Source: a virus. From it: a DNA stretch of 29,449 nt. Each line of letters starts with the position of its first letter. Position 1 is the first letter of the stretch. Under the pieces are notes generated by a model. It was not told the DNA's origin. It was given only the letters and a program-made list of their open reading frames with translations, and did no database searches. Positions 1,106 to 16,046 of this stretch are shown here, in pieces. A program made the translations under genes and the position numbers. The stretch covers positions 1-29,449 of the IMG/VR virus record IMGVR_UViG_3300045996_000302, one strand, 5' to 3'.

Positions 1106-3985
1106 ATGCTCGACGCCTTCCGCAACCGCAAAGTGAAGAAGTCACCTGAGCCTAAGCCGAGCTACGCTCCGAAGGGCGAGGCAGGGCGCGGGCACACCGA
1201 GGGTTGGCTTGACCTCGAAGAGTTCAACAATGATCTGAAGCACCCGCACGGTCATCGTGTCTATGACAAGATGTACCGGACAGACGGCGATGTGCGTCAG
1301 GTCGTTCAGTTGATCTGTAACCCGATCATTGCCGGTACCTGGGCCGTGGTGCCCTACGGTGGCGAGCACGCTGATGACGAGGCGCAGGACATCGCCGCGT
1401 TCATCAAGTGGGCGCTGTTCGAGGCAATGTCGCCCAACCTGTTGCAGCACCTCCAGTCGATGCTACCTATCCTGGTCCGCAGCGGGTTTGTTCCTTTCGA
1501 GAAGATTTGGAAGACCGCCGAGTACACGCCGGTCGAGCGCGCGCCGGGCAAGGAGGATGGCGAGCGCATGAAGAAGGAGGCCGAGCAGAAGGCCGAGAAG
1601 AAGGAGAAGGCTGCTCAGGAGATGCAGAAGGAACAGCTCAAGGCGCAAACGGACATCGCCAAGGAGCAGGAGAAGACCAAGCAGAAGCAGGTCGCCAAGA
1701 AGGCACTCGAAGCGATCCGCAAGGCGCTGTACGCGGGCACAATCACCCTTGCCGAGGCGACTGCGATGACCAAGCAGGTCGTCACGGAGAGCAAGGGCGA
1801 CGACGCCGAGCGCAACAGCGAGTCGAAGCGCACCGTTGTCGTGCCCCGCACTCTCAGCGTGCGCCTTCCCCGCACCATCGAGAAGTTTGAGCAGGACGAG
1901 TGGGGCGAGCTACGGCGCATCAAGCAGTGGCTGCCGGTTCCCCGCACGTCGCTTACTGCGCGCGAGGGTGGCCCGCTGAAGGATGAGCCGCAGCGCCCCG
2001 AGGGTCCGTCGTACGTGTGGCTGGATGCGGAGAACCTGATCTACTACCGCATCGGAGCCGAAGGGGACAACTGGGAGGGTGTCTCCCTGCTACGTCCCGC
2101 GTACAAGCATTGGCTGTACAAGGACAAGATTGAGCGTATTGACGCCATTGCGCAGGAACGGGAGGCGCTGGGCATCCCGATCTGCTACCCGCCCCTGGGA
2201 GCCGATGAGCGACAGCTCGATGAAATCGAACTTGTACTCCAGGCGATGCGGGCTAACGAGCAGGCGTACATTGTCGCTCCAGGGCCGAAGGCCGCGGCTG
2301 GTGCGCCAGAAGGTCAGGGTTGGCTGTTCGAGGTGATCGGCTACGACCGCACGGGCAGTGGTCGAGACCCACAGCCGTCGCTGGAGTATCACACGCTCAA
2401 GATCGCCGCGAGCTTCATCGCGGAGTTCATGCGGCTCGGACACGGGCAGACGGGTGCTCGCGCGACGGCGCAAGTGCAGGCCGACCCCTTCCAGATGTCG
2501 GTCGAAGCTCTCGTTGGGATCGTCGAGCAGCAGCTCAACACACTGGTACGCGAGATTGTACGCGTCAATTACGGTGAGACTCACAAGGTTCCTAAGTTGC
2601 AGATGTCGCTGGTGGATTCCACCAGCCTCTCACAGCTCGCCGACTACGTGCAGAAGCTGACGCAGATCGGCGCGTTGCTCCCGGACCAGGAGCTTGAGGA
2701 CTTCCTTCGTGCGCGCGCCGACCTGCCGCCCGCGAACCCTGCGTCGATCGAGAAGCGCAAGGACAAGGACGACGAGACACGTCGCATGATCGTGACGGGT
2801 GGGACTACCTCGGCGGAACAGGCCGAGGCGGGTGCCGAGGCACCGGGCGGTCCGCCCAAGGGCGATCCGTTCGGCGCGAACGCACCTGTTGGCAAGCACG
2901 GTACAAAGGACGCACCGCAGAAGACTCAGTCGGGTGGCGGTGCCGCATCGAACCGCTCGCGCGACGATGAGGCGATCACGCTCAACGCTGACTTCCTCCC
3001 CCCCGAGGAGGGTGGCCCGCGTCCCAGGCACCGCGACCTACGTTGGCTTGAGCTGACGGTCGATTGGGATGCACTTGAGGACGAGATGGATGCTCTGCCG
3101 GAACGAGCTATCCAGCTTTGCGGCGATCATGTGTTCGGCAAGGCGTGCGGAGCAGACGTGAGTGACACGGAGATGCACGATGCTCTTGCTCGGTTGCTGA
3201 ACGACGCTTACGACTACGGTTACAACAGCGTCGTCGAGGAAGTCGCGCATCAGCGAGAGCTTGCGGGGCTTGTACTCGATCGGGGTGCGGTTGACCGTGG
3301 CCGGAAGCATCTCGACCAGCGTGTTGAGCTGGCTGTCGAGTTCGTGAACTTCGCTCTTCGTCAGGCGAAGATCAATGCTGATCTTATCTATGGGCATGAT
3401 TCCAAGGTGCAGCTCGCGGTTGAACAGGCCGGCCTCGCTGCACTGAAGGCGGTCGGTCGTGACCATGCGGTCAACTCATTGCTCCTCGGTCGGCACGATG
3501 CGGGGCGCTACCTTGATGAGGAGGACGACAGTGTACGCATCCTGGGGGTCCGATACTCTGCCGTACTCGACAAGGGAACTTGCGGTCCGTGCGCTGAGTC
3601 CGATGACGGTCGCCTGCGCCGTGTTGATGACCCTGTTCGTCTTGATCGCAGGCCGCCGAACCGTCACTGCGACTCGACAGCTTCGGGCTTCAATCGTTGC
3701 CGTTGCACCGAGGTCTACGAAGTGCAGCCCGAGAATGCGTTTTCCCACAACCTGGGTGTGGCTCTGGACGACGGAGGACTCCACCCCTACCTCGCACGGG
3801 TAGCAACCGCACTGATGGCGCGCGGGATGGATAGCAACCGGGCGGTGTCGACGGCGCTGGGGATCGCCAAGACACACTGCACGTCCGGTCGCATCAACTG
3901 GCCTGGCATCCGCGCCATCAACCCCGGGTCTCGTTCCGAGGCGTGCGAGGCGTTGGCACAGCATGGCTACGAGTACACTACTTAG
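1106..3985 (+). CDS. Portal protein fused to MuF-like minor head protein (959 aa)
   Basis: The portal forms the dodecameric ring through which DNA enters the head; MuF-type proteins are minor head components ejected or used in assembly. Residues about 30-580 read as a Mu gp29/DUF935-like portal (DVRQVVQLICNPIIAGTW, YLYKDKIERIDAIAQ-type core). Residues about 640-959 are a MuF-type domain with C826xxC829 (GTCGPCAESDDG) followed by RHCDS and NRCRC, a likely zinc-binding cluster. Residues 148-206 are an extremely Lys/Glu-rich, coiled-coil-like insertion inside the portal half, and 600-650 is a Gly/Pro/Ala-rich linker. In most phages portal and MuF are separate genes, so this is a fusion; no internal stop or frameshift is seen. 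The start at ATG 1106 is preceded by a GATAGTTC motif rather than a normal ribosome site. The end overlaps the methyltransferase start by 23 bp. Confidence 0.85.
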   Translation: MLDAFRNRKVKKSPEPKPSYAPKGEAGRGHTEGWLDLEEFNNDLKHPHGHRVYDKMYRTDGDVRQVVQLICNPIIAGTWAVVPYGGEHADDEAQDIAAFIKWALFEAMSPNLLQHLQSMLPILVRSGFVPFEKIWKTAEYTPVERAPGKEDGERMKKEAEQKAEKKEKAAQEMQKEQLKAQTDIAKEQEKTKQKQVAKKALEAIRKALYAGTITLAEATAMTKQVVTESKGDDAERNSESKRTVVVPRTLSVRLPRTIEKFEQDEWGELRRIKQWLPVPRTSLTAREGGPLKDEPQRPEGPSYVWLDAENLIYYRIGAEGDNWEGVSLLRPAYKHWLYKDKIERIDAIAQEREALGIPICYPPLGADERQLDEIELVLQAMRANEQAYIVAPGPKAAAGAPEGQGWLFEVIGYDRTGSGRDPQPSLEYHTLKIAASFIAEFMRLGHGQTGARATAQVQADPFQMSVEALVGIVEQQLNTLVREIVRVNYGETHKVPKLQMSLVDSTSLSQLADYVQKLTQIGALLPDQELEDFLRARADLPPANPASIEKRKDKDDETRRMIVTGGTTSAEQAEAGAEAPGGPPKGDPFGANAPVGKHGTKDAPQKTQSGGGAASNRSRDDEAITLNADFLPPEEGGPRPRHRDLRWLELTVDWDALEDEMDALPERAIQLCGDHVFGKACGADVSDTEMHDALARLLNDAYDYGYNSVVEEVAHQRELAGLVLDRGAVDRGRKHLDQRVELAVEFVNFALRQAKINADLIYGHDSKVQLAVEQAGLAALKAVGRDHAVNSLLLGRHDAGRYLDEEDDSVRILGVRYSAVLDKGTCGPCAESDDGRLRRVDDPVRLDRRPPNRHCDSTASGFNRCRCTEVYEVQPENAFSHNLGVALDDGGLHPYLARVATALMARGMDSNRAVSTALGIAKTHCTSGRINWPGIRAINPGSRSEACEALAQHGYEYTT

Positions 3986-4967
3986 GGTTGGGTCGCTATT
4001 CAGCGGGATCGGAGGATTCGATCTTGGCTTCGAGCGCGCAGGGATGCGTGTTGTGTGGCAGGTCGAACGCGAACCCTACTGTCGTAGAGTGTTGCGCAAG
4101 CACTGGCCGGACGTGCCGTGCTACGACGATGTGCGTTATCTGCCGCACGACATTGAGCAAGTTGATGTCCTCTGTGGTGGTTTTCCATGCCAGGACGTAA
4201 GTGAAGCCGGTCGCAAGAAGGGTCTGAGGGATGGCGCGAAATCGTCGGCGTGGGTATACTTCGCACGCCTTATTGGCAAGCTACGACCCAGCTACGTCGT
4301 CGTGGAGAACGTCAGCGCCCTCACGCGACGCGGACTCGACATCGTCCTCGCTGACCTTGCCGCGCTCGGGTACGATGCGGAATGGGAATGTCTACCAGCA
4401 TCCGCCTTCGGTGCGCATCACGAGAGGGACCGGCTCTGGCTCGTTGCCTACCCCCACCGCCTCGGAGAGGGGTCGCTCGAGGCAGGGGTATCCCAGCCTG
4501 ACACAAACGGTCAAGGCGTCAGAGATTCCGACCCCGACGGCGAGCAACTACAACGCGGTGCAGACAAGGGGCTACGGTCGGCCTCCGATCGACTACACCC
4601 GCCCACTGTTACCGACACCAGTAGCATCGGACGCGGAGCGGGGACCGAGGGGCAAGGGGTCGGCGGAACGTCATTGGGGGAAAGGCAACCTGCCGATGGT
4701 GGCGGCATCCTGGCCTACGCCGACGCGCTCAGATGCGCACGGCAACGGGTCGTATTCGGGCAGGCAAGGTGGTCCGAACTTGAGGGGAGCCGTTCAGAAC
4801 TCGGGATCACCTGGGCCGTTGAACCCGACGTGGGTAGAGTGGCTTATGGGATTCCCTCTCGGGTGGACAGAATGCACGCCCTCGGAAACGCCCTCGTCCC
4901 CCAGGTAGCGGAGTACATCGGGCGTGCGATAGTCCGGCATCATGCCGGATTGTCTCTTCATTGCTGA
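3963..4967 (+). CDS. DNA (cytosine-5) methyltransferase (334 aa)
   Basis: Transfers a methyl group from S-adenosylmethionine to C5 of cytosine in a specific DNA site, most likely protecting phage DNA from host restriction. Diagnostic motifs run in order: I, FSGIGGFDLGFERAG (13-27); IV, GGFPCQDVSEAG with catalytic Cys76; VI, ENV (115-117); VIII, HHERDRLW (152-159, R155 and R157); and X, GNALVPQVAEYIG (308-320). The stretch before motif X (EPDVGRVAYGIPSRVDRMHALGN) is also typical. The segment between VIII and IX, where target recognition lies, is Gly/Asp/Ser-rich and atypical, and it coincides with a second conserved-looking frame (4231-4908). The gene overlaps the portal-MuF gene by 23 bp and the protease/scaffold gene by 26 bp, so it is embedded in the head operon. 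No cognate restriction enzyme is seen. Target sequence unknown. Confidence 0.93.
   Translation: MATSTLLRVGSLFSGIGGFDLGFERAGMRVVWQVEREPYCRRVLRKHWPDVPCYDDVRYLPHDIEQVDVLCGGFPCQDVSEAGRKKGLRDGAKSSAWVYFARLIGKLRPSYVVVENVSALTRRGLDIVLADLAALGYDAEWECLPASAFGAHHERDRLWLVAYPHRLGEGSLEAGVSQPDTNGQGVRDSDPDGEQLQRGADKGLRSASDRLHPPTVTDTSSIGRGAGTEGQGVGGTSLGERQPADGGGILAYADALRCARQRVVFGQARWSELEGSRSELGITWAVEPDVGRVAYGIPSRVDRMHALGNALVPQVAEYIGRAIVRHHAGLSLHC
4231..4908 (+). CDS. Overprinted ORF inside the methyltransferase, with PTPxxSD repeats (225 aa)
   Basis: This frame lies wholly within the methyltransferase gene in a different phase, yet looks like a protein family in its own right. It opens after a stop at 4225-4227 with ATG 4231, and AAGAAGGG (4215-4222) sits 8 nt upstream as a fair ribosome site. 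Features in order: YDPATSSWRTS (18-28), LPRSGTMRNG (43-52), TGSGSLPTPTASE (67-79), further PTPxxS[N/D] repeats at 100-106, 128-134 and 162-168, GGPNLRGAV (180-188), and LNPTWVEWLMGFPLGWTEC (197-215). From memory, free-standing phage proteins with PTPxxxD repeats and a terminal NPxWVEWLMGxPxGWT motif exist; I cannot verify this here. The function is unknown. The alternative is a fortuitous open frame generated by conserved methyltransferase codons in GC-rich DNA, since each of these motifs lies over a conserved methyltransferase segment. Confidence 0.45.
   Translation: MARNRRRGYTSHALLASYDPATSSWRTSAPSRDADSTSSSLTLPRSGTMRNGNVYQHPPSVRITRGTGSGSLPTPTASERGRSRQGYPSLTQTVKASEIPTPTASNYNAVQTRGYGRPPIDYTRPLLPTPVASDAERGPRGKGSAERHWGKGNLPMVAASWPTPTRSDAHGNGSYSGRQGGPNLRGAVQNSGSPGPLNPTWVEWLMGFPLGWTECTPSETPSSPR
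4928..4935 (+). promoter_or_regulatory. GATAGTCC start-associated motif
   Basis: A GATAGTYC copy ending exactly 6 nt before the ATG at 4942 of the protease/scaffold gene, inside the end of the methyltransferase frame. No good Shine-Dalgarno sequence is present for that start. Confidence 0.4.
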
Positions 4968-6057
4968 TGCGCCCGACACCCTGACGCTTGCGTCGGGGAC
5001 CGCGACATCACGCGTACAGATCGCTAAGACGGGGAACTTCGTTGATCCTCGCTACGGTAAGTTCTCCATCACGACCGCGGACTTTCGCAAGTGGATGGAC
5101 AACTTCGCAACCCTGTCCACCGCGCAGGACCGCGCTGGCCTCCCTGTGGACGTGGACCACGGGCCTGAGAAGCGTGGTGACACCGAGGCGGCGGGATGGA
5201 TCACCAAGCTGGATACGTTGGGCAAGGACGGGAAGACATCGTCACCCAATGAACTCTGGGCCACTGTCGAGTGGAACAGCCTGGGTCAGGAGCTAGTCAC
5301 CGACAAGCGTTACCTGTACCTCTCCCCCTCCTACCAGCACAACTACAAGGACGAGAACGGACGTGCGCATGGCACCGCGCTGGTTGGTGTCGGCCTCACG
5401 AACCGTCCCTTCCTGACGATGGCAACCGTGTCGCTTTCCAAGTCGGCACAGTTCGCTACGGAGGACGTGACGCCGCCCGCGCCCGCGCGCGAGTCGGATA
5501 GTTCGACCTCGATGCCGGAACTGAGCAACACCATTCTCACCAAGCTCGGGCTGGATGACAAGGCTGATGAGGCGGCGGTGCTCGCCGCCATCGATGGCCT
5601 GTCTACGAACCCGACCCTCGACGACCTGGCGAAGAGCCAGAACAAGGTCGTCCTCGACGCGAGCGATGTCACGACGCTGCTTGCAGATGCGACGGCGGGC
5701 CGTCAGGCTGCCGACGAGCTGCACAAGCAGAAGTTCGAGACGGCGTTCGACAAGGCCCTGTCGCAGGGCAAGGCCACTCCGGCGCAGAAGGAGACCTACG
5801 AGAAGCTGTATGCCGCTGACGCGGATACGACCCTCTCGGCTCTCGACAGCGCCCCGGTGGTCCTGAACATGCACGGTGTCGGCGGCTCGGGTAGCGATAC
5901 CCTCGCTCACGATGCTGGCGGGACGCTCTCGGCTGAGGCCGACGGCCTTGCGGTTGACGAGGACCGCTCCGCGCTGCATGAGAAGGCGCTCCAGCTCGCT
6001 GCCGAGCGCAACATCGACTACGCTGACGCTGTCATCCTGGCCGCGTCGGGAGCGTGA
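4942..6057 (+). CDS. Mu I-like prohead protease/scaffold protein (371 aa)
   Basis: Acts inside the procapsid: the N-terminal part is a maturation protease and the C-terminal part is a scaffold around which the capsid protein assembles. Residues about 1-170 match the Mu-like I protease family: DVDHG (70-74), AAGWI (83-87), LWATVEW (105-111), YLYLSPSY (124-131) and VGVGLTNRPFL (148-158). H73 and S128 or S130 are candidate catalytic residues. After a Pro/Ala-rich hinge (177-190) the C-terminal 180 residues are Ala/Asp/Lys-rich and helical, as expected for a scaffold. In Mu, gene Z is translated from an internal start in gene I; here Met191 (codon at 5512) is in the right place. Decoration and capsid genes follow directly. 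The start at ATG 4942 overlaps the methyltransferase end by 26 bp. Confidence 0.85.
   Translation: MPDCLFIADAPDTLTLASGTATSRVQIAKTGNFVDPRYGKFSITTADFRKWMDNFATLSTAQDRAGLPVDVDHGPEKRGDTEAAGWITKLDTLGKDGKTSSPNELWATVEWNSLGQELVTDKRYLYLSPSYQHNYKDENGRAHGTALVGVGLTNRPFLTMATVSLSKSAQFATEDVTPPAPARESDSSTSMPELSNTILTKLGLDDKADEAAVLAAIDGLSTNPTLDDLAKSQNKVVLDASDVTTLLADATAGRQAADELHKQKFETAFDKALSQGKATPAQKETYEKLYAADADTTLSALDSAPVVLNMHGVGGSGSDTLAHDAGGTLSAEADGLAVDEDRSALHEKALQLAAERNIDYADAVILAASGA
5512..6057 (+). CDS. Probable nested scaffolding protein (internal start, 181 aa)
   Basis: An in-frame ATG at 5512 begins MPELSNTILTKLGLDDKADE at the junction between protease and scaffold parts of the 4942-6057 gene. A GATAGTTC motif (5497-5504) ends 7 nt upstream, the same motif and nearly the same spacing as before several other starts without Shine-Dalgarno sequences. 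A separately made scaffold from an internal start is the known arrangement in Mu (genes I and Z) and lambda (C and Nu3). The product would be acidic, Ala-rich and helical, with no protease motifs. Confidence 0.5.
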   Translation: MPELSNTILTKLGLDDKADEAAVLAAIDGLSTNPTLDDLAKSQNKVVLDASDVTTLLADATAGRQAADELHKQKFETAFDKALSQGKATPAQKETYEKLYAADADTTLSALDSAPVVLNMHGVGGSGSDTLAHDAGGTLSAEADGLAVDEDRSALHEKALQLAAERNIDYADAVILAASGA

Positions 6058-11000: not shown

Positions 11001-11195
11001 ATGGGCGAACAGTCCGATCGTGTCGAGGGCTTCATGCGCGTGTTCGGCGCGCGGATCAATCGGCGCAACGATGGTGGTGCCCAGGCGTGGTGCAAGAAGT
11101 GCTCGCGCACGCACGGGCGTCGTACCACCTGTAACCTGTACCTGCGGGACCGCATCGCCAAGAGTGGCGAGACGGTGAAGCGGTGGGCGCACTAA
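11001..11195 (+). CDS. Small Cys-containing protein (64 aa)
   Basis: Function not recognised. AAGGGG (10989-10994) is an excellent ribosome site for the ATG at 11001; two earlier in-frame ATGs (10995, 10998) are too close to it. The protein is basic, with a CxxC pair and a third Cys (WCKKCSRTHGRRTTCNLYL), so it may bind zinc, and ends with a short basic helix. The stop overlaps the next ATG by one base (TAATG), coupling it to the glycosyltransferase. It could be a small regulator or nucleic-acid-binding protein. Confidence 0.6.
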   Translation: MGEQSDRVEGFMRVFGARINRRNDGGAQAWCKKCSRTHGRRTTCNLYLRDRIAKSGETVKRWAH

Positions 11196-12625
11196 TGCCG
11201 TCGGTTGGTCTTGCACTGATCGTCAAGAACGAGGAGGACAACCTCCCCCGGCTCCTTGAGTCGGTGTCCGGCGCATTCGACTACGTCGTGCTGTGCGATA
11301 CCGGCTCGACCGACAAGACCGTCAAGGTGTTCCGCGAGTGGGCCGAGCGTGAGCAGGCAGCGCATCCGACGATGGGTTGGATCGTTGTCGACTACCACTG
11401 GGATGATGACTTCTCAGCGGCACGGAACTACGCCGACTCGTTCTTGTACACCGACTGGAAGGTGTGGGCGGACGCCGACGACACCATCGAAGGTGCCCAG
11501 AACATTCGGTACGTCATCGAGAACGCGCCCGAGCAGGTCACCGCGTTCATCACAGGCTATGACTACGCGCAGCATCCCGACACGGGCGCGTGCATGTGCT
11601 TCCTCAAGCGCGAGCGGATCGTCAAGCGAGGTCACGGTCAGTGGATCGGTCGTGTCCATGAGGCACAGACGGTGCAGGGTGCGTCACAGTACGTCCCCGA
11701 AGACCTCCTTCTGTGGAAGCATCACAAGGGCATTGAGGTCGGTGAGTCGGCATCGCGGTCGAACCGGCGCAACCTGCGCATCCTCCGCAAGTGGAACAAG
11801 GTCGAGCCGAACAACCCGCGCGTTGTCGGCTACCTCGGTACCGAGTACGCGGTGCATGGCGCGCACAAGACGGCGCTGCGCTACTACCGTCAGTACCTAC
11901 GCCTCGATGTTGGCTGGGCCGACGAGCGGGCGCAAATCTGTCGCAAGTACGCGGGTTCGCTCATGGCCCTGGACAACCACGCCAAGGCGAAGGATGCGGC
12001 GGTCGAGGGGATCAAGACGAACCCCCGGTGGCCGGATAGCTACCTGACACTGGCAGAGATTGCCTACCATGAGGAGCGTTACGATGACGTTCTCAACAAT
12101 GCGGAGATGGTTCTTGCACTTGGCAAGCCGGACACGCTGTTGATCGTCAACCCGCTCGATTACACGTTCGCGCCGCTCGCGCTCAAGGCCCGCGCCCTCG
12201 GGTCGCTGGGACGCTACGGGGACGCCGTTGAGGCCGCTGACGCGGCGCTAGCGGCCTTCCCCGACTACGGGCTGGCCCATGAGTCCCAGGCGTGGCGCGG
12301 CGTCCTAAAGGCCGAGCGGACGGCGGCACAGTACACGGTGATGGCGGAACAGCTCATTGCGCACGATGAACAGCTCAAGGCGCTCACGCTGCTGACGGAG
12401 TGTGTTCCCCATTTCGCCATTGACCACCCCAAGATCGCCGCGATGCGCACATGGCTGCATCAGCGGATCGGCTGGGCATTCGATCCGTCAGCACTGTCCG
12501 AGCACTACACCGACGGCGGTAGCAAGCCGGAGGACTTCATCCCGGACGATCAGGTGGACACGATCGCTGGTTCCCTCCCCCGCGCTCGTTTCCTCGCCGA
12601 CAACATTCTGGAGCAGATCGGATGA
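11195..12625 (+). CDS. GT2-family glycosyltransferase with TPR-like C-terminal half (476 aa)
   Basis: Transfers a sugar from an activated donor, most likely to a protein. Residues 1-about 190 are a GT-A fold: GLALIVKNEEDNLPRLLES (5-23), VVLCDTGSTDKT (31-42) and the DxD-like metal-binding site WADADD (91-96), followed by an acceptor region with RVHEAQ. Residues about 200-430 are helical repeats resembling tetratricopeptides (YLGTEYAVHGAHKTALRYYRQYL, YLTLAEIAYHEERYDDVLNNAE), which could hold the substrate protein. I start it at ATG 11195, overlapping the preceding stop by one base, rather than at GTG 11183. It ends in an ATGA overlap with the next small gene. Lying next to structural genes, it may glycosylate capsid or tail proteins; cell-wall or DNA targets are less likely but possible. 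Confidence 0.85.
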   Translation: MPSVGLALIVKNEEDNLPRLLESVSGAFDYVVLCDTGSTDKTVKVFREWAEREQAAHPTMGWIVVDYHWDDDFSAARNYADSFLYTDWKVWADADDTIEGAQNIRYVIENAPEQVTAFITGYDYAQHPDTGACMCFLKRERIVKRGHGQWIGRVHEAQTVQGASQYVPEDLLLWKHHKGIEVGESASRSNRRNLRILRKWNKVEPNNPRVVGYLGTEYAVHGAHKTALRYYRQYLRLDVGWADERAQICRKYAGSLMALDNHAKAKDAAVEGIKTNPRWPDSYLTLAEIAYHEERYDDVLNNAEMVLALGKPDTLLIVNPLDYTFAPLALKARALGSLGRYGDAVEAADAALAAFPDYGLAHESQAWRGVLKAERTAAQYTVMAEQLIAHDEQLKALTLLTECVPHFAIDHPKIAAMRTWLHQRIGWAFDPSALSEHYTDGGSKPEDFIPDDQVDTIAGSLPRARFLADNILEQIG

Positions 12626-12801
12626 TCCTGAAGTGCCAGAACATGCAGTGCGGCCGTCTGACCACGGACACCGAGGCTAACCAACGGGTAGTAAACCAGG
12701 GCCGCTGCGGTGAGTGCAATGGGGCACTTGCTCCCCAAGCGCATCAGGTGACCGCGGCAGATACACAACTCAACATCTTCCACACGAGAGACAATGGCTG
12801 A
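12622..12801 (+). CDS. Tiny zinc-ribbon-like protein (59 aa), Com-like in layout
   Basis: Starts at ATG 12622 with an ATGA overlap with the glycosyltransferase stop and ends at TGA 12799-12801, overlapping the ParB-like start by 8 bp. The N-terminal part has a C5-x4-C10 pair and the middle a C29GEC32 pair, the layout of a one-zinc ribbon. In phage Mu, Com is a zinc-binding protein of similar size that activates translation of mom. The tail (HQVTAADTQLNIFHTRDNG) is polar. The overlap at both ends and the Cys pattern make it a real gene; a Com-like role is only an inference from size, Cys pairs and the Mom-like gene nearby. Confidence 0.7.
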   Translation: MILKCQNMQCGRLTTDTEANQRVVNQGRCGECNGALAPQAHQVTAADTQLNIFHTRDNG

Positions 12802-13423
12802 GATCGTCACAACCGAGCTAGTTACGATTGACACGCTGAACCCGTACCCCGGCAACGCTCGCCGAGGTGATGTTGAGCGCATCCGCGAAAGCCTGCGGGT
12901 CAATGGTCAGTACCGACCAATCGTCGTTCAAGCTGACACCAACTACATTCTCGCTGGCAACCACACTTGGATGGCCGCGATGGAGGAGGGTTGGTCTGAC
13001 ATCGCCGTCACGTACGTCAAGTGTGATGATGTCGAGGCGCGGCGCATCGTACTCGTTGACAACAAGTCGAACGATGATGCAGCCTACAATGACGAGGCGT
13101 TGGCCGACCTTCTCAAGCAGCTCGATGGCAACTTTGAGGGTACGGGTTTTGAAGCGGCGGACCTCGACAACCTTCTCACCACTCTTGGGTCGGACGACTT
13201 TGAAGCCGTCCTGGGTGGGCTTGCGGGCGATAAACCTGAGTTCGTTACGATGAGCTTCACTTTGCATGAGGAACAGAAGCGCTCCATTGATGAGGCGATG
13301 GAACTCGCCAACGATATGGGCGAGTACGTCGACACGGGTAACGAGAACAAGAACGGCAACGCGCTCGCACGGGTTGCCGAGATGTTCCTCGGCCAATACA
13401 AGTCGGATGCCGATTCAGTATAG
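12794..13423 (+). CDS. ParB/Srx-fold nuclease-like protein (209 aa)
   Basis: Residues about 1-95 match the ParB N-terminal domain: VTIDTLNPYPGNARRGDVERIRESL is its opening, then GQYRPIVVQ, YILAGNHTWMAAMEEGW (the GNHT in place of the chromosomal GxRR box) and an ITYV-like strand before DDVEARRIVLVDNKSND. Phage members of this family are annotated as ParB-like nucleases or CTP-binding switches and often lie beside DNA-modifying enzymes. There is no recognisable helix-turn-helix partition domain after it; the C-terminal 100 residues are acidic and helical. It starts 8 bp inside the previous gene and ends 17 bp inside the next small ORF, so the whole 12622-14232 set is one overlapping unit. A role with the Mom-like enzyme downstream is likely but unproven. 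Confidence 0.8.
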   Translation: MAEIVTTELVTIDTLNPYPGNARRGDVERIRESLRVNGQYRPIVVQADTNYILAGNHTWMAAMEEGWSDIAVTYVKCDDVEARRIVLVDNKSNDDAAYNDEALADLLKQLDGNFEGTGFEAADLDNLLTTLGSDDFEAVLGGLAGDKPEFVTMSFTLHEEQKRSIDEAMELANDMGEYVDTGNENKNGNALARVAEMFLGQYKSDADSV

Positions 13424-14317: not shown

Positions 14318-14491
14318 ATGGACAAGACGACGAGGCTCCTGGGATACATTCAGGACGCAGAAGCAATGACGCAGCGTGAACTGCGTGCGGCACCGACGCG
14401 TCACCTCTCGCTGATCGCAACGCAGCTTGAGTACGCGCGCCTGCTCGAAGAGGATCGCATCAAGAACGGGCTGGCCGCAGATGCGTCCTAA
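14318..14491 (+). CDS. Small hypothetical helical protein (57 aa)
   Basis: Not recognised. The protein (MDKTTRLLGYIQDAEAMTQREL at its start is mostly helical) has no Cys and alternates charged and Leu residues, consistent with one or two amphipathic helices. I choose ATG 14318 because GGGGATGGG lies upstream at a usable distance; an earlier in-frame ATG at 14303 has no ribosome site. Its stop overlaps the start of the methyltransferase-glycosyltransferase gene by 11 bp, so it may serve mainly to bring ribosomes to that start. Confidence 0.55.
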   Translation: MDKTTRLLGYIQDAEAMTQRELRAAPTRHLSLIATQLEYARLLEEDRIKNGLAADAS

Positions 14492-16046
14492 GTTCCGCGT
14501 CCTCGACCTCGGGGCGCACGATGGGTTCGTGACCAACTGGCTTGGTCGCGGCATGAAGTCGATCGGTCACGATCTGCACATCGATGGTGTCGAACTGAAC
14601 CCTGCCGCCGTCGAGGTGGCGAACCGCCGTAAGGAGAACGACGGCGAGTACAAGGTGGGTCTCGCGGAGGACGCCGCCAAGCTGTTCATGGCCCACTCGT
14701 ACGATGCGGTCGTCGCGTACGAACTGATCGAGCACGTCGTCGATATGAACGCGTTTCTGGCGCGTTGCGAGACGATGTGCAAGCAGGAAGGCCGGGTCTA
14801 CATCAGCACGCCTGACGGCACGTTCGGTGCGGGCCAGAACCCCCATCACCTGCGCGCCATCCGTGCCATCGAGCTGTACGAGTTGATCCGCCGCCGTGGC
14901 AAGGTGGAGGATATGATCGTCGGCGAGGACGGTGTGACGGTCATCTGCTACCAGCCGAAGAAGGGTGGGTTCACGCAGCCGGGCAAGCCGCACACCGACG
15001 AGGTGGCGATCTACTGTGGACCGGGCTGGCAGCGTTGGGAACCGACCGACATCGAGCGCAAGGGTCTCGGTGGCAGTGAGACCGCAGCGGTGCGTCTTGG
15101 TGAAGAGCTTTCCGAGATGGGCTACACCGTGACGGTCTACGGCGAGGTCAAGGAGTCGGCGTACAAGCAGGTTGCGTACCGTCGCCATGAGTCGTTCAAC
15201 CCGATGGACGACCGGCTCGCTGTCATCTGCTCCCGCTCCCCCGCGCTGTTCGATCAGCAGATCAACGCGCACAAGAAGCTGCTGTGGATGCACGACACCG
15301 ACTACGGCCCTGCGATGACACCCGAGCGCATCGAGAAGGTTGATGCGATCATGGTGCTGTCGGAGTGGCACAAGGCGCATGTTGAACAGACCTACCCCGG
15401 CATCGACAAGCTGCACGTCACTGCAAACGGTGTCCACCTGCCGTACTTCGAGGGAGACGAAGAGCGTGACCTCCACAGAGCGATGTACACCTCCTCCCCA
15501 GACCGCGGTTTGGATATCGTGCTCGAACTGTGGCCGCAGGTACGTCGTAAGGTGCCCGACGCTGAGTTGTACTTCTGCTACAGCGATGTCTACAACGCGG
15601 TCGCCGATGCTGACCCTGGGCTTGGCGCCTTTCGCAAGCGGGTGTTGGAGCTGTCCCAGCAGGATGGAGTTTTCAACCTGGGGTCGCTCACTCAGCCGCA
15701 GCTATCGCGTGAGATGAAGAAGTCGAACATCTGGCTCGCGCCGTCGTACAACACTCGCTACGACGTTCCGTTCCATGAGACCTACTGCATCGGTGCCACC
15801 GAGGCAGCGATTGCCGGTTGCGCGCTGGTGTTGTCCCCCTGGGGCGCGCTCCCCGAGCGGGCCGAGGACGCGGCGCAGTCGGCGCAGCTCCCCGCATCAC
15901 CGGAGGGCAAGATCGACAAGAAGCACTGGGCTGATGTCATCGTTGACCTCATGGCGTACCCGACTGACAACAATGTCTCACCCGAGGCGCAGGATCGCAC
16001 ATGGAAGGCCGTGGCCCGCGACTTCCGTGCGGTGATCGAAGGATAG
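14481..16046 (+). CDS. SAM-methyltransferase / GT4 glycosyltransferase fusion (521 aa)
   Basis: Residues 1-about 160 are a Rossmann methyltransferase: motif I VLDLGAHDG (7-15), the ribose-binding acidic residue in GVELNPAAVEVANRR (36-50) and YDAVVAYELIEHVVD (74-88). Residues about 172-521 are a GT-B, GT4-type glycosyltransferase: GLGGSETAAVRLGEELSEMGY near its start, VMVLSEWHK-type helix, TANGVHL, SSPDRGLDIVLELWP and the ExxxxxxxE signature (E433 and E441 in HETYCIGATEAAIAG). GT4 enzymes use nucleotide-sugars with retention of configuration. The frame is open from 14427, but ATG 14481, overlapping the previous small gene, gives a clean methyltransferase N-terminus. Together with the GT2 gene it suggests a phage-encoded pathway making a methylated sugar on a virion protein; this is inference. 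It ends 9 bp before the connector gene. Confidence 0.85.
   Translation: MRPKFRVLDLGAHDGFVTNWLGRGMKSIGHDLHIDGVELNPAAVEVANRRKENDGEYKVGLAEDAAKLFMAHSYDAVVAYELIEHVVDMNAFLARCETMCKQEGRVYISTPDGTFGAGQNPHHLRAIRAIELYELIRRRGKVEDMIVGEDGVTVICYQPKKGGFTQPGKPHTDEVAIYCGPGWQRWEPTDIERKGLGGSETAAVRLGEELSEMGYTVTVYGEVKESAYKQVAYRRHESFNPMDDRLAVICSRSPALFDQQINAHKKLLWMHDTDYGPAMTPERIEKVDAIMVLSEWHKAHVEQTYPGIDKLHVTANGVHLPYFEGDEERDLHRAMYTSSPDRGLDIVLELWPQVRRKVPDAELYFCYSDVYNAVADADPGLGAFRKRVLELSQQDGVFNLGSLTQPQLSREMKKSNIWLAPSYNTRYDVPFHETYCIGATEAAIAGCALVLSPWGALPERAEDAAQSAQLPASPEGKIDKKHWADVIVDLMAYPTDNNVSPEAQDRTWKAVARDFRAVIEG

Follow-up and report, generated by a model that had tools for sequence, protein, structure and literature searches.

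An overprinted gene pair in tailed phages that probably encodes the two chains of one C5-cytosine methyltransferase

Two overlapping reading frames in a phage head operon

The window, by which we mean the whole 29,449-base IMG/VR virus record analysed here, carries a cytosine methyltransferase gene flanked by the portal gene (1106-3985) on one side and the head maturation protease gene (4942-6057) on the other, within a head operon ordered terminase, portal, methyltransferase, protease, scaffold, major head protein. We call the methyltransferase frame alpha and the second, overprinted frame beta. Beta lies entirely within alpha, in its +1 frame, so that the two share about 226 codons in different frames; to our knowledge, deeply conserved same-strand overlaps of such length are rare outside small viruses. 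The features of the pair are as follows.

3963..4967, + strand: alpha, catalytic subunit, C5-cytosine methyltransferase of 334 residues with motifs I-VIII and X (PF00145, AlphaFold, Foldseek)
3996..4016, + strand: alpha motif I, LFSGIGG (sequence; columns nearly invariant in alignment A2)
4176..4196, + strand: alpha motif IV, GGFPCQD, with the catalytic Cys (G-x-P-C-Q invariant in A2)
4215..4222, + strand: Shine-Dalgarno-like AAGAAGGG, 8 nucleotides ahead of the beta ATG at 4231 (sequence)
4225..4227, + strand: TGA in the beta frame, immediately upstream of the beta start (sequence)
4231..4908, + strand: beta, putative nested recognition and motif IX subunit of 225 residues, alpha +1 frame (homologous ORFs, shuffles, codon positions, phrog_1008)
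4282..4314, + strand: beta YDPATSSWRTS, beta-hairpin predicted at low confidence (alignment A3; model)
4305..4313, + strand: alpha motif VI, ENV (E and N invariant in A2)
4357..4386, + strand: beta LPRSGTMRNG, part of a beta-hairpin predicted at low confidence (P44, G47 and G52 at least 90% conserved in A3)
4425..4445, + strand: alpha motif VIII, RDRLWLV (R155 and R157 invariant in A2)
4447..4737, + strand: four beta PTPxxS(E/N/D) repeats, starting at 4447, 4528, 4612 and 4714 (sequence)
4473..4844, + strand: alpha linker above the beta recognition region, low in complexity and mostly predicted disordered (pLDDT; codon positions)
4819..4875, + strand: beta motif IX equivalent, LNPTWVEWLMGFPLGWTEC (profile matches to canonical motif IX; A3 columns at least 90% conserved)
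4881..4904, + strand: alpha motif X, LGNALVPQ (G308 and N309 invariant in A2; pLDDT ~92)

A preliminary description of this DNA had reported the 225-residue ORF overprinted on a 334-codon methyltransferase, and it exists as described. The motifs quoted there, and the register of one motif over another, all proved right when checked against the sequence: YDPATSSWRTS lies over RPSYVVVENV, LPRSGTMRNG over GYDAEWE, and LNPTWVEWLMGFPLGWTEC over EPDVGRVAYGIPSRVDR. The ribosome site proposed ahead of ATG 4231 is plausible, and the in-frame TGA means that beta cannot extend upstream, fixing its start at 4231. The same description took the methyltransferase to be intact with motifs I to X, but motif IX is found not in the alpha frame but in the second one.

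Alpha bears the C5-cytosine methyltransferase features of motifs I, IV (PCQ), VI (ENV) and VIII. Its match to PF00145 (E=5.7e-42) spans only residues 8-167, that is motifs I-VIII, and positions 2-165 of the 324 in the profile. The AlphaFold model has a confident catalytic domain (pLDDT >90 for most of residues 1-166), from which Foldseek matched M.HhaI over ~163 residues; most of residues 171-294 fall below a pLDDT of 50, and the C-terminal motif X helix is again confident. Motif X is carried in alpha's own chain, with an invariant GN in A2. Neither motif IX nor a folded target-recognition domain was found in alpha's frame by the PF00145 search, the AlphaFold model or the motif survey described below. 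Along the linker the alpha reading frame is kept open, its residues are not conserved, and alpha position 3 is no longer the fastest-changing codon position. As modelled, alpha is a chain for catalysis with motif X attached, lacking a folded recognition domain and with motif IX absent from its frame.

In beta, the PTP repeats begin at residues 73, 100, 128 and 162; among relatives their number per protein ranges from 1 to 7. The conserved end of the protein (consensus LNPTWVEWLMGFPxGWT in alignment A3) is the equivalent of motif IX, carried by beta as LNPTWVEWLMGFPLGW. Compared directly with ordinary C5 methyltransferases, the beta profile gives a single best local match on RLTPKECQKLQGFPDWF, which is motif IX, at a weak P=0.011, and its C-terminal segment alone gives an also weak P=0.002, so the link to motif IX depends on intermediates. 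Relatives whose motifs IX and X share a chain yield a bridging profile, which matches canonical motif IX-X at P=1.1e-6 and the beta of the window at P=3e-10, both values coming from two-profile comparisons rather than a database-calibrated search. Three single-chain relatives (L546, L606, L622) carry motifs I-VIII, PTP repeats, IX and X in one frame, with the repeats between motif VIII and motif IX, and the phage family phrog_116 aligns to alpha at 206-392 and, further downstream (409-496), to beta proteins from three actinophages. Bridging profiles, single-chain relatives and the PHROG 116 alignment together identify the PTP repeats and WVEWLMGFP, at the level of sequence, as the recognition region and motif IX of such enzymes.

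Modelled alone, beta reaches only low confidence (pLDDT 63.8, pTM 0.26), and fold matching of this low-confidence model found no PDB structure. A profile search of beta against PDB sequences returned chance matches only, such as glycolipid transfer protein, and a phmmer match to the designed SAKe protein looks like an effect of composition. The N-terminus of beta is variable among relatives, some loci having neither ATG nor GTG ahead of the conserved core. An ATG with a Shine-Dalgarno-like match of at least 4 bases precedes the core in 56% of loci vs 13% of shuffles, a comparison that is supportive only, being biased by the stops that shuffling also adds. Longer betas in several loci (e.g. L095, L164, L008) begin with QMELPL or similar, over alpha ADGI.VDVI just before motif IV, a start that resembles a sliding-clamp-binding peptide.

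Elsewhere in the window, a ParB-like protein (12794-13423; phrog_723) also matches the N-terminal part of the DNA methyltransferase family phrog_498. Two glycosyltransferase-like genes lie in the structural region (11183-12625 and 14427-16046; phrog_13126 and phrog_2170) and might serve in modification of the virion or of the host surface.

Occurrence of the nested frame and selection upon it

Scanning viral contigs with beta as the query confirmed at least 595 relatives, and tblastn with beta matched 141 phage records. Judged by record titles, relatives also extend to some 16 bacterial phyla, where they sit in prophages or phage-like contigs, and to two archaeal MAG contigs, with the proviso that phylum assignments based on MAGs may include stray phage contigs. 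Plasmid records with beta relatives include those of Leptospira, Streptomyces, Bacteroides and Salmonella. In a further group of P1-like plasmid matches (H80-H84) from E. coli, E. albertii and Salmonella, the alpha matches fall within genes annotated 'Dam family adenine methyltransferase', and the cytosine-methyltransferase-like part may overlap the annotated gene or be fused to it.

Neither Pfam nor NCBIfam holds a model for beta. Among PHROGs, it matches phrog_1008 (E=3e-27), and the members of families 1008, 10223, 26627, 27243 and 31772 are beta proteins, labelled either 'DNA methyltransferase' or of unknown function, with no mention of the overlap or of the missing catalytic motifs. Individual annotators have seen the arrangement: Diva gp50 is annotated 'g49 internal gene', the overlap of YungJamal gp7/gp6 is recorded in the annotation, and double annotations like that of Diva occur in Paenibacillus and mycobacterium phages, in records that give no function or generality. 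What the preliminary description had taken for free-standing phage proteins turned out, in nearly every case examined, to be the nested ORF annotated by itself (members of phrog_1008, Diva gp50). It had recommended a database search with the 225-residue protein, which did find relatives, and had held that matches confined to out-of-frame methyltransferase genes would speak against a second protein. That reasoning is misleading because the real beta gene resides exactly there.

The position of beta relative to alpha is close to constant. Of the 487 loci scored, 485 have the beta core in alpha's +1 frame; among 160 viral loci this held without exception, both for the 80 retrieved with beta as the query and for the 80 retrieved separately with alpha. 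We compared these frames with shuffles in which alpha's synonymous codons were permuted, retaining the alpha protein and its codon usage. The +1 frame of the window stayed open in none of 200 such shuffles, which had a mean of 5.8 stops. Scored against its HMM over 167 loci, the N-terminal core of beta reached a median of 103 bits vs 39 bits after shuffling (shuffled maximum 74), and the motif IX part a median of 51.6 bits vs 0. Part of the N-terminal similarity of beta thus hitch-hikes on alpha, and most of it does not.

Codon positions give a second line of evidence, drawn from 18 independent pairs of loci with 75-98% identity. Differences at alpha positions 1/2/3 numbered 39/17/136 upstream of the overlap and 14/14/68 downstream of it, a pattern normal for coding alpha, and 423/207/202 in the recognition region. 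The fastest-changing position thus switches from alpha 3 outside the overlap to beta 3 in the recognition region (binomial p = 6e-19); since alpha position 1 is beta position 3, beta is the conserved frame there. The rates at alpha and beta positions are balanced over both the N-terminal core of beta and its motif IX part, as dual constraint predicts. The alpha-like pattern persists up to a point immediately before YDP, which places the beginning of beta's conserved part near YDP, as in the window. The same trend was seen with a smaller set of loci, and, the copy in the window having no close relative, the test speaks for the family rather than for this copy. From the codon-position switch, beta is under purifying selection at the protein level.

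Both frames are open in most loci. In the recognition region, shuffles that preserve beta are expected to create ~2.5 alpha stops per locus, the expectation alone being informative in this comparison because the loci were picked for intact alpha and have zero stops by construction. As a control, 21 loci of ordinary C5 methyltransferases, taken from the same bacterial genomes, lacked beta in the 2.6 kb searched from the catalytic domain, and in the nine loci of that bacterial sample that do have beta, the PF00145 match covers only the N-terminal part of the profile or little beyond.

The pair is, by these measures, an overprinted gene pair with selection on both frames: both are conserved, and the recognition region and motif IX are in beta, not in alpha. 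The preliminary description had suggested that either both frames were under selection or one had arisen from the other by frame switching. Its second selected frame is borne out by the shuffles and by the comparison of change in both frames that it had called for, and frame switching by the motif placements given below, while its intact set of motifs I to X and its free-standing proteins did not stand. It had proposed no function for the second frame; the evidence points to a target-recognition and motif IX subunit of the same enzyme.

Motif placement among relatives and other readings

In a regular-expression survey of distinct loci, 278 had motif IX in beta and motif X in alpha, as in the window; both motifs lay in beta in ~68 loci, including phiBT1, Upyo, Ovechkin and YungJamal, and both in alpha in ~41 loci, of the type of Rhodococcus phage ReT1v-1. 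Only 3 loci had a motif duplicated in both frames. The survey is crude, and the loci in which it detected neither motif reflect divergence, contig ends or missed variants. Motifs IX and X hence sit in different frames in different relatives, and their complementary placement is the pattern that would be expected if both frames jointly make one enzyme.

The single-chain relatives described above are the methyltransferases with in-frame PTPxxxD segments that the preliminary description had mentioned. In all three, a match like the beta N-terminus persists in the +1 frame; in L606 it scores 82 bits, more than the 74 that shuffles reach at most, and it may be a relic of a nested ancestor, or hitch-hiking. 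Two methyltransferases of this kind lie in tandem on an Embleya plasmid (L171:2268-5628) and are built differently: IX and X are in the beta frame of the first, while the second has both in alpha and PTP repeats in +1. Two plasmid records from Salmonella and Enterobacter (L168, L169) form a divergent branch, whose alpha has motifs IV and VI and whose +1 protein has ALRASVRRTS, GWPTP repeats and LNPDLSRWLMGLPDAW; they are probably the same design with a different N-terminal part. Alpha has apparent frameshifts or stops in three loci (L195, L234, L247), from real decay or assembly errors.

Programmed ribosomal frameshifting could in principle join the same pieces into a single fused chain, the ribosome slipping by +1 after motif VIII and reading the recognition region in the beta frame. 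The constant +1 geometry and the existence of natural in-frame fusions fit such a slip, and a single slip would suffice to make a complete enzyme in forms that have both IX and X in beta (phiBT1, Ovechkin, YungJamal). In the window, however, a further slip would be required to reach motif X, which is again encoded in the alpha frame, while wherever alpha holds both IX and X the slip would lose both motifs. Beta of the window also has its own start and Shine-Dalgarno site after an in-frame stop, and the YDP and MRNG part that precedes the PTP repeats is selected in the beta frame, yet would be left untranslated by a slip after motif VIII. An alpha-to-beta frameshift is possible for the forms with IX and X in beta, but alone it cannot explain the window type, and as a general account we regard it as improbable.

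Beta might instead be a separate accessory protein outside the enzyme, such as a regulator or an anti-restriction or anti-methylation factor. It is independently started, its low-confidence model gives no fold, and its N-terminal motifs YDP/SWRT and WPxSGxMRNG were not found in frame in the single-chain forms. Set against this, alpha is without motif IX and a folded recognition domain, motif IX shifts between frames and is almost never duplicated, and the fusions place the same repeats inside the enzyme. The motif IX missing from alpha and the complementarity of motifs between frames disfavor an independent accessory, which we consider very improbable.

A decaying or inactive methyltransferase, its recognition region drifted out of frame, would account for the unconserved alpha linker, for the few loci with apparent decay (L195, L234) and for the annotation of phiBT1 gp9.1 as 'may be inactive'. 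This reading is extremely unlikely, given that alpha and beta are both open in most loci despite the stops expected from shuffling, that the catalytic residues are invariant in A2, and that beta is under purifying selection. Finally, the notion that beta is untranslated and owes its conservation to conserved alpha residues and codon bias has a next to negligible chance of being right: beta does overlap the conserved alpha motifs VI-VIII and X, and shuffled alpha retains 39 bits for the N-terminal core, but the real scores lie far above the shuffles, codon evolution is dominated by beta in just those parts in which alpha is unconserved, and the control C5 methyltransferases are without beta, so that chance or hitch-hiking is rejected by shuffles, codon positions and controls alike.

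The proposed enzyme and known split methyltransferases

The locus very probably encodes a split, heterodimeric C5 methyltransferase in which the gene for the recognition subunit is nested in that for the catalytic subunit. The same DNA would specify two chains of one C5-cytosine DNA methyltransferase. Alpha would supply the AdoMet-binding and catalytic motifs I-VIII, a long unstructured linker and then motif X; beta, translated from its own internal ATG in the +1 frame, would supply motif IX together with the region for target recognition, made up of the hairpin motifs and the PTP repeats. Alpha and beta would associate as an active heterodimer that takes its sequence recognition from beta. 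Given its placement in a tailed-phage head operon, the enzyme would likely serve to protect the phage from host restriction by methylating its own DNA. For this phage, we infer the translation of beta, its binding to alpha, the activity of the enzyme and its biological role from the computed evidence.

On a broader scale, the pair may be an old and very widespread overlap of tailed phages, often ~200 codons long on the same strand, in which motifs IX and X and the recognition repeats, all essential to the enzyme, have on repeated occasions changed frame or become part of single-chain fusions, making frame switching a route to new methyltransferase specificity; we hold the case for this history to be evenly balanced. 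Three aspects appear to be new: the dominance of this design across phages, the placement of the conserved recognition region in the nested subunit, and the movement of motifs IX and X from one frame to the other. The absence of the family from Pfam and NCBIfam is new as well. An earlier description of the phage-wide overlap was not found in the open literature, which omits most subscription journals and is weak evidence on this point.

If the proposed heterodimer is correct, both products of this overlap would be parts of the same enzyme. It would account for many phage proteins now called 'hypothetical' or falsely labelled 'DNA methyltransferase', and for many phage methyltransferases that look incomplete. 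It also suggests that activity tests would fail when the annotated ORF is cloned alone, or when the codons of alpha are changed for expression, a step that destroys beta. As dual-frame, split and fused states can all be found today, the family would offer a natural system for the study of how overlapping genes originate.

The nearest counterpart is M.EcoHK31I, whose small-subunit gene is nested in or overlaps the large-subunit gene in another frame, as is that of its isoschizomer M.EaeI; the small-subunit gene of the window is likewise nested, in the +1 frame. M.EcoHK31I, an E. coli enzyme recognizing YGGCCR, consists of two polypeptides, the large one with motifs I-VIII and X and the small one with motif IX (PMC3404938, citing Lee et al. 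1995), the division of motifs also seen in the window. Its predicted recognition domain has been placed in the large subunit (PMC3404938), whereas in the window it is the small subunit that bears the conserved PTP recognition repeats, the corresponding region of the large one being predicted to be disordered. M.EcoHK31I also belongs to a restriction-modification system, unlike the window pair in its phage head operon. When the EcoHK31I sequence was sought in plasmids, the matches opened were other methyltransferases. By analogy, the window type would work like M.EcoHK31I, to which we liken it by its motif split rather than assign it as a proven member.

M.AquI (CYCGRG) is divided differently, alpha holding motifs I-VIII and beta the distal variable region with IX-X (PMC3404938). 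The window departs from it in keeping motif X in alpha and in genes that overlap in different frames. The small subunit does contain motif X in the ~68 relatives with IX and X both in beta, among them phiBT1, Upyo, Ovechkin and YungJamal, which in this respect resemble M.AquI. The single-chain enzymes of the phrog_116 type have the same catalytic part, repeats, motif IX and motif X as the window pair and, unlike it, are unsplit and encoded in one frame.
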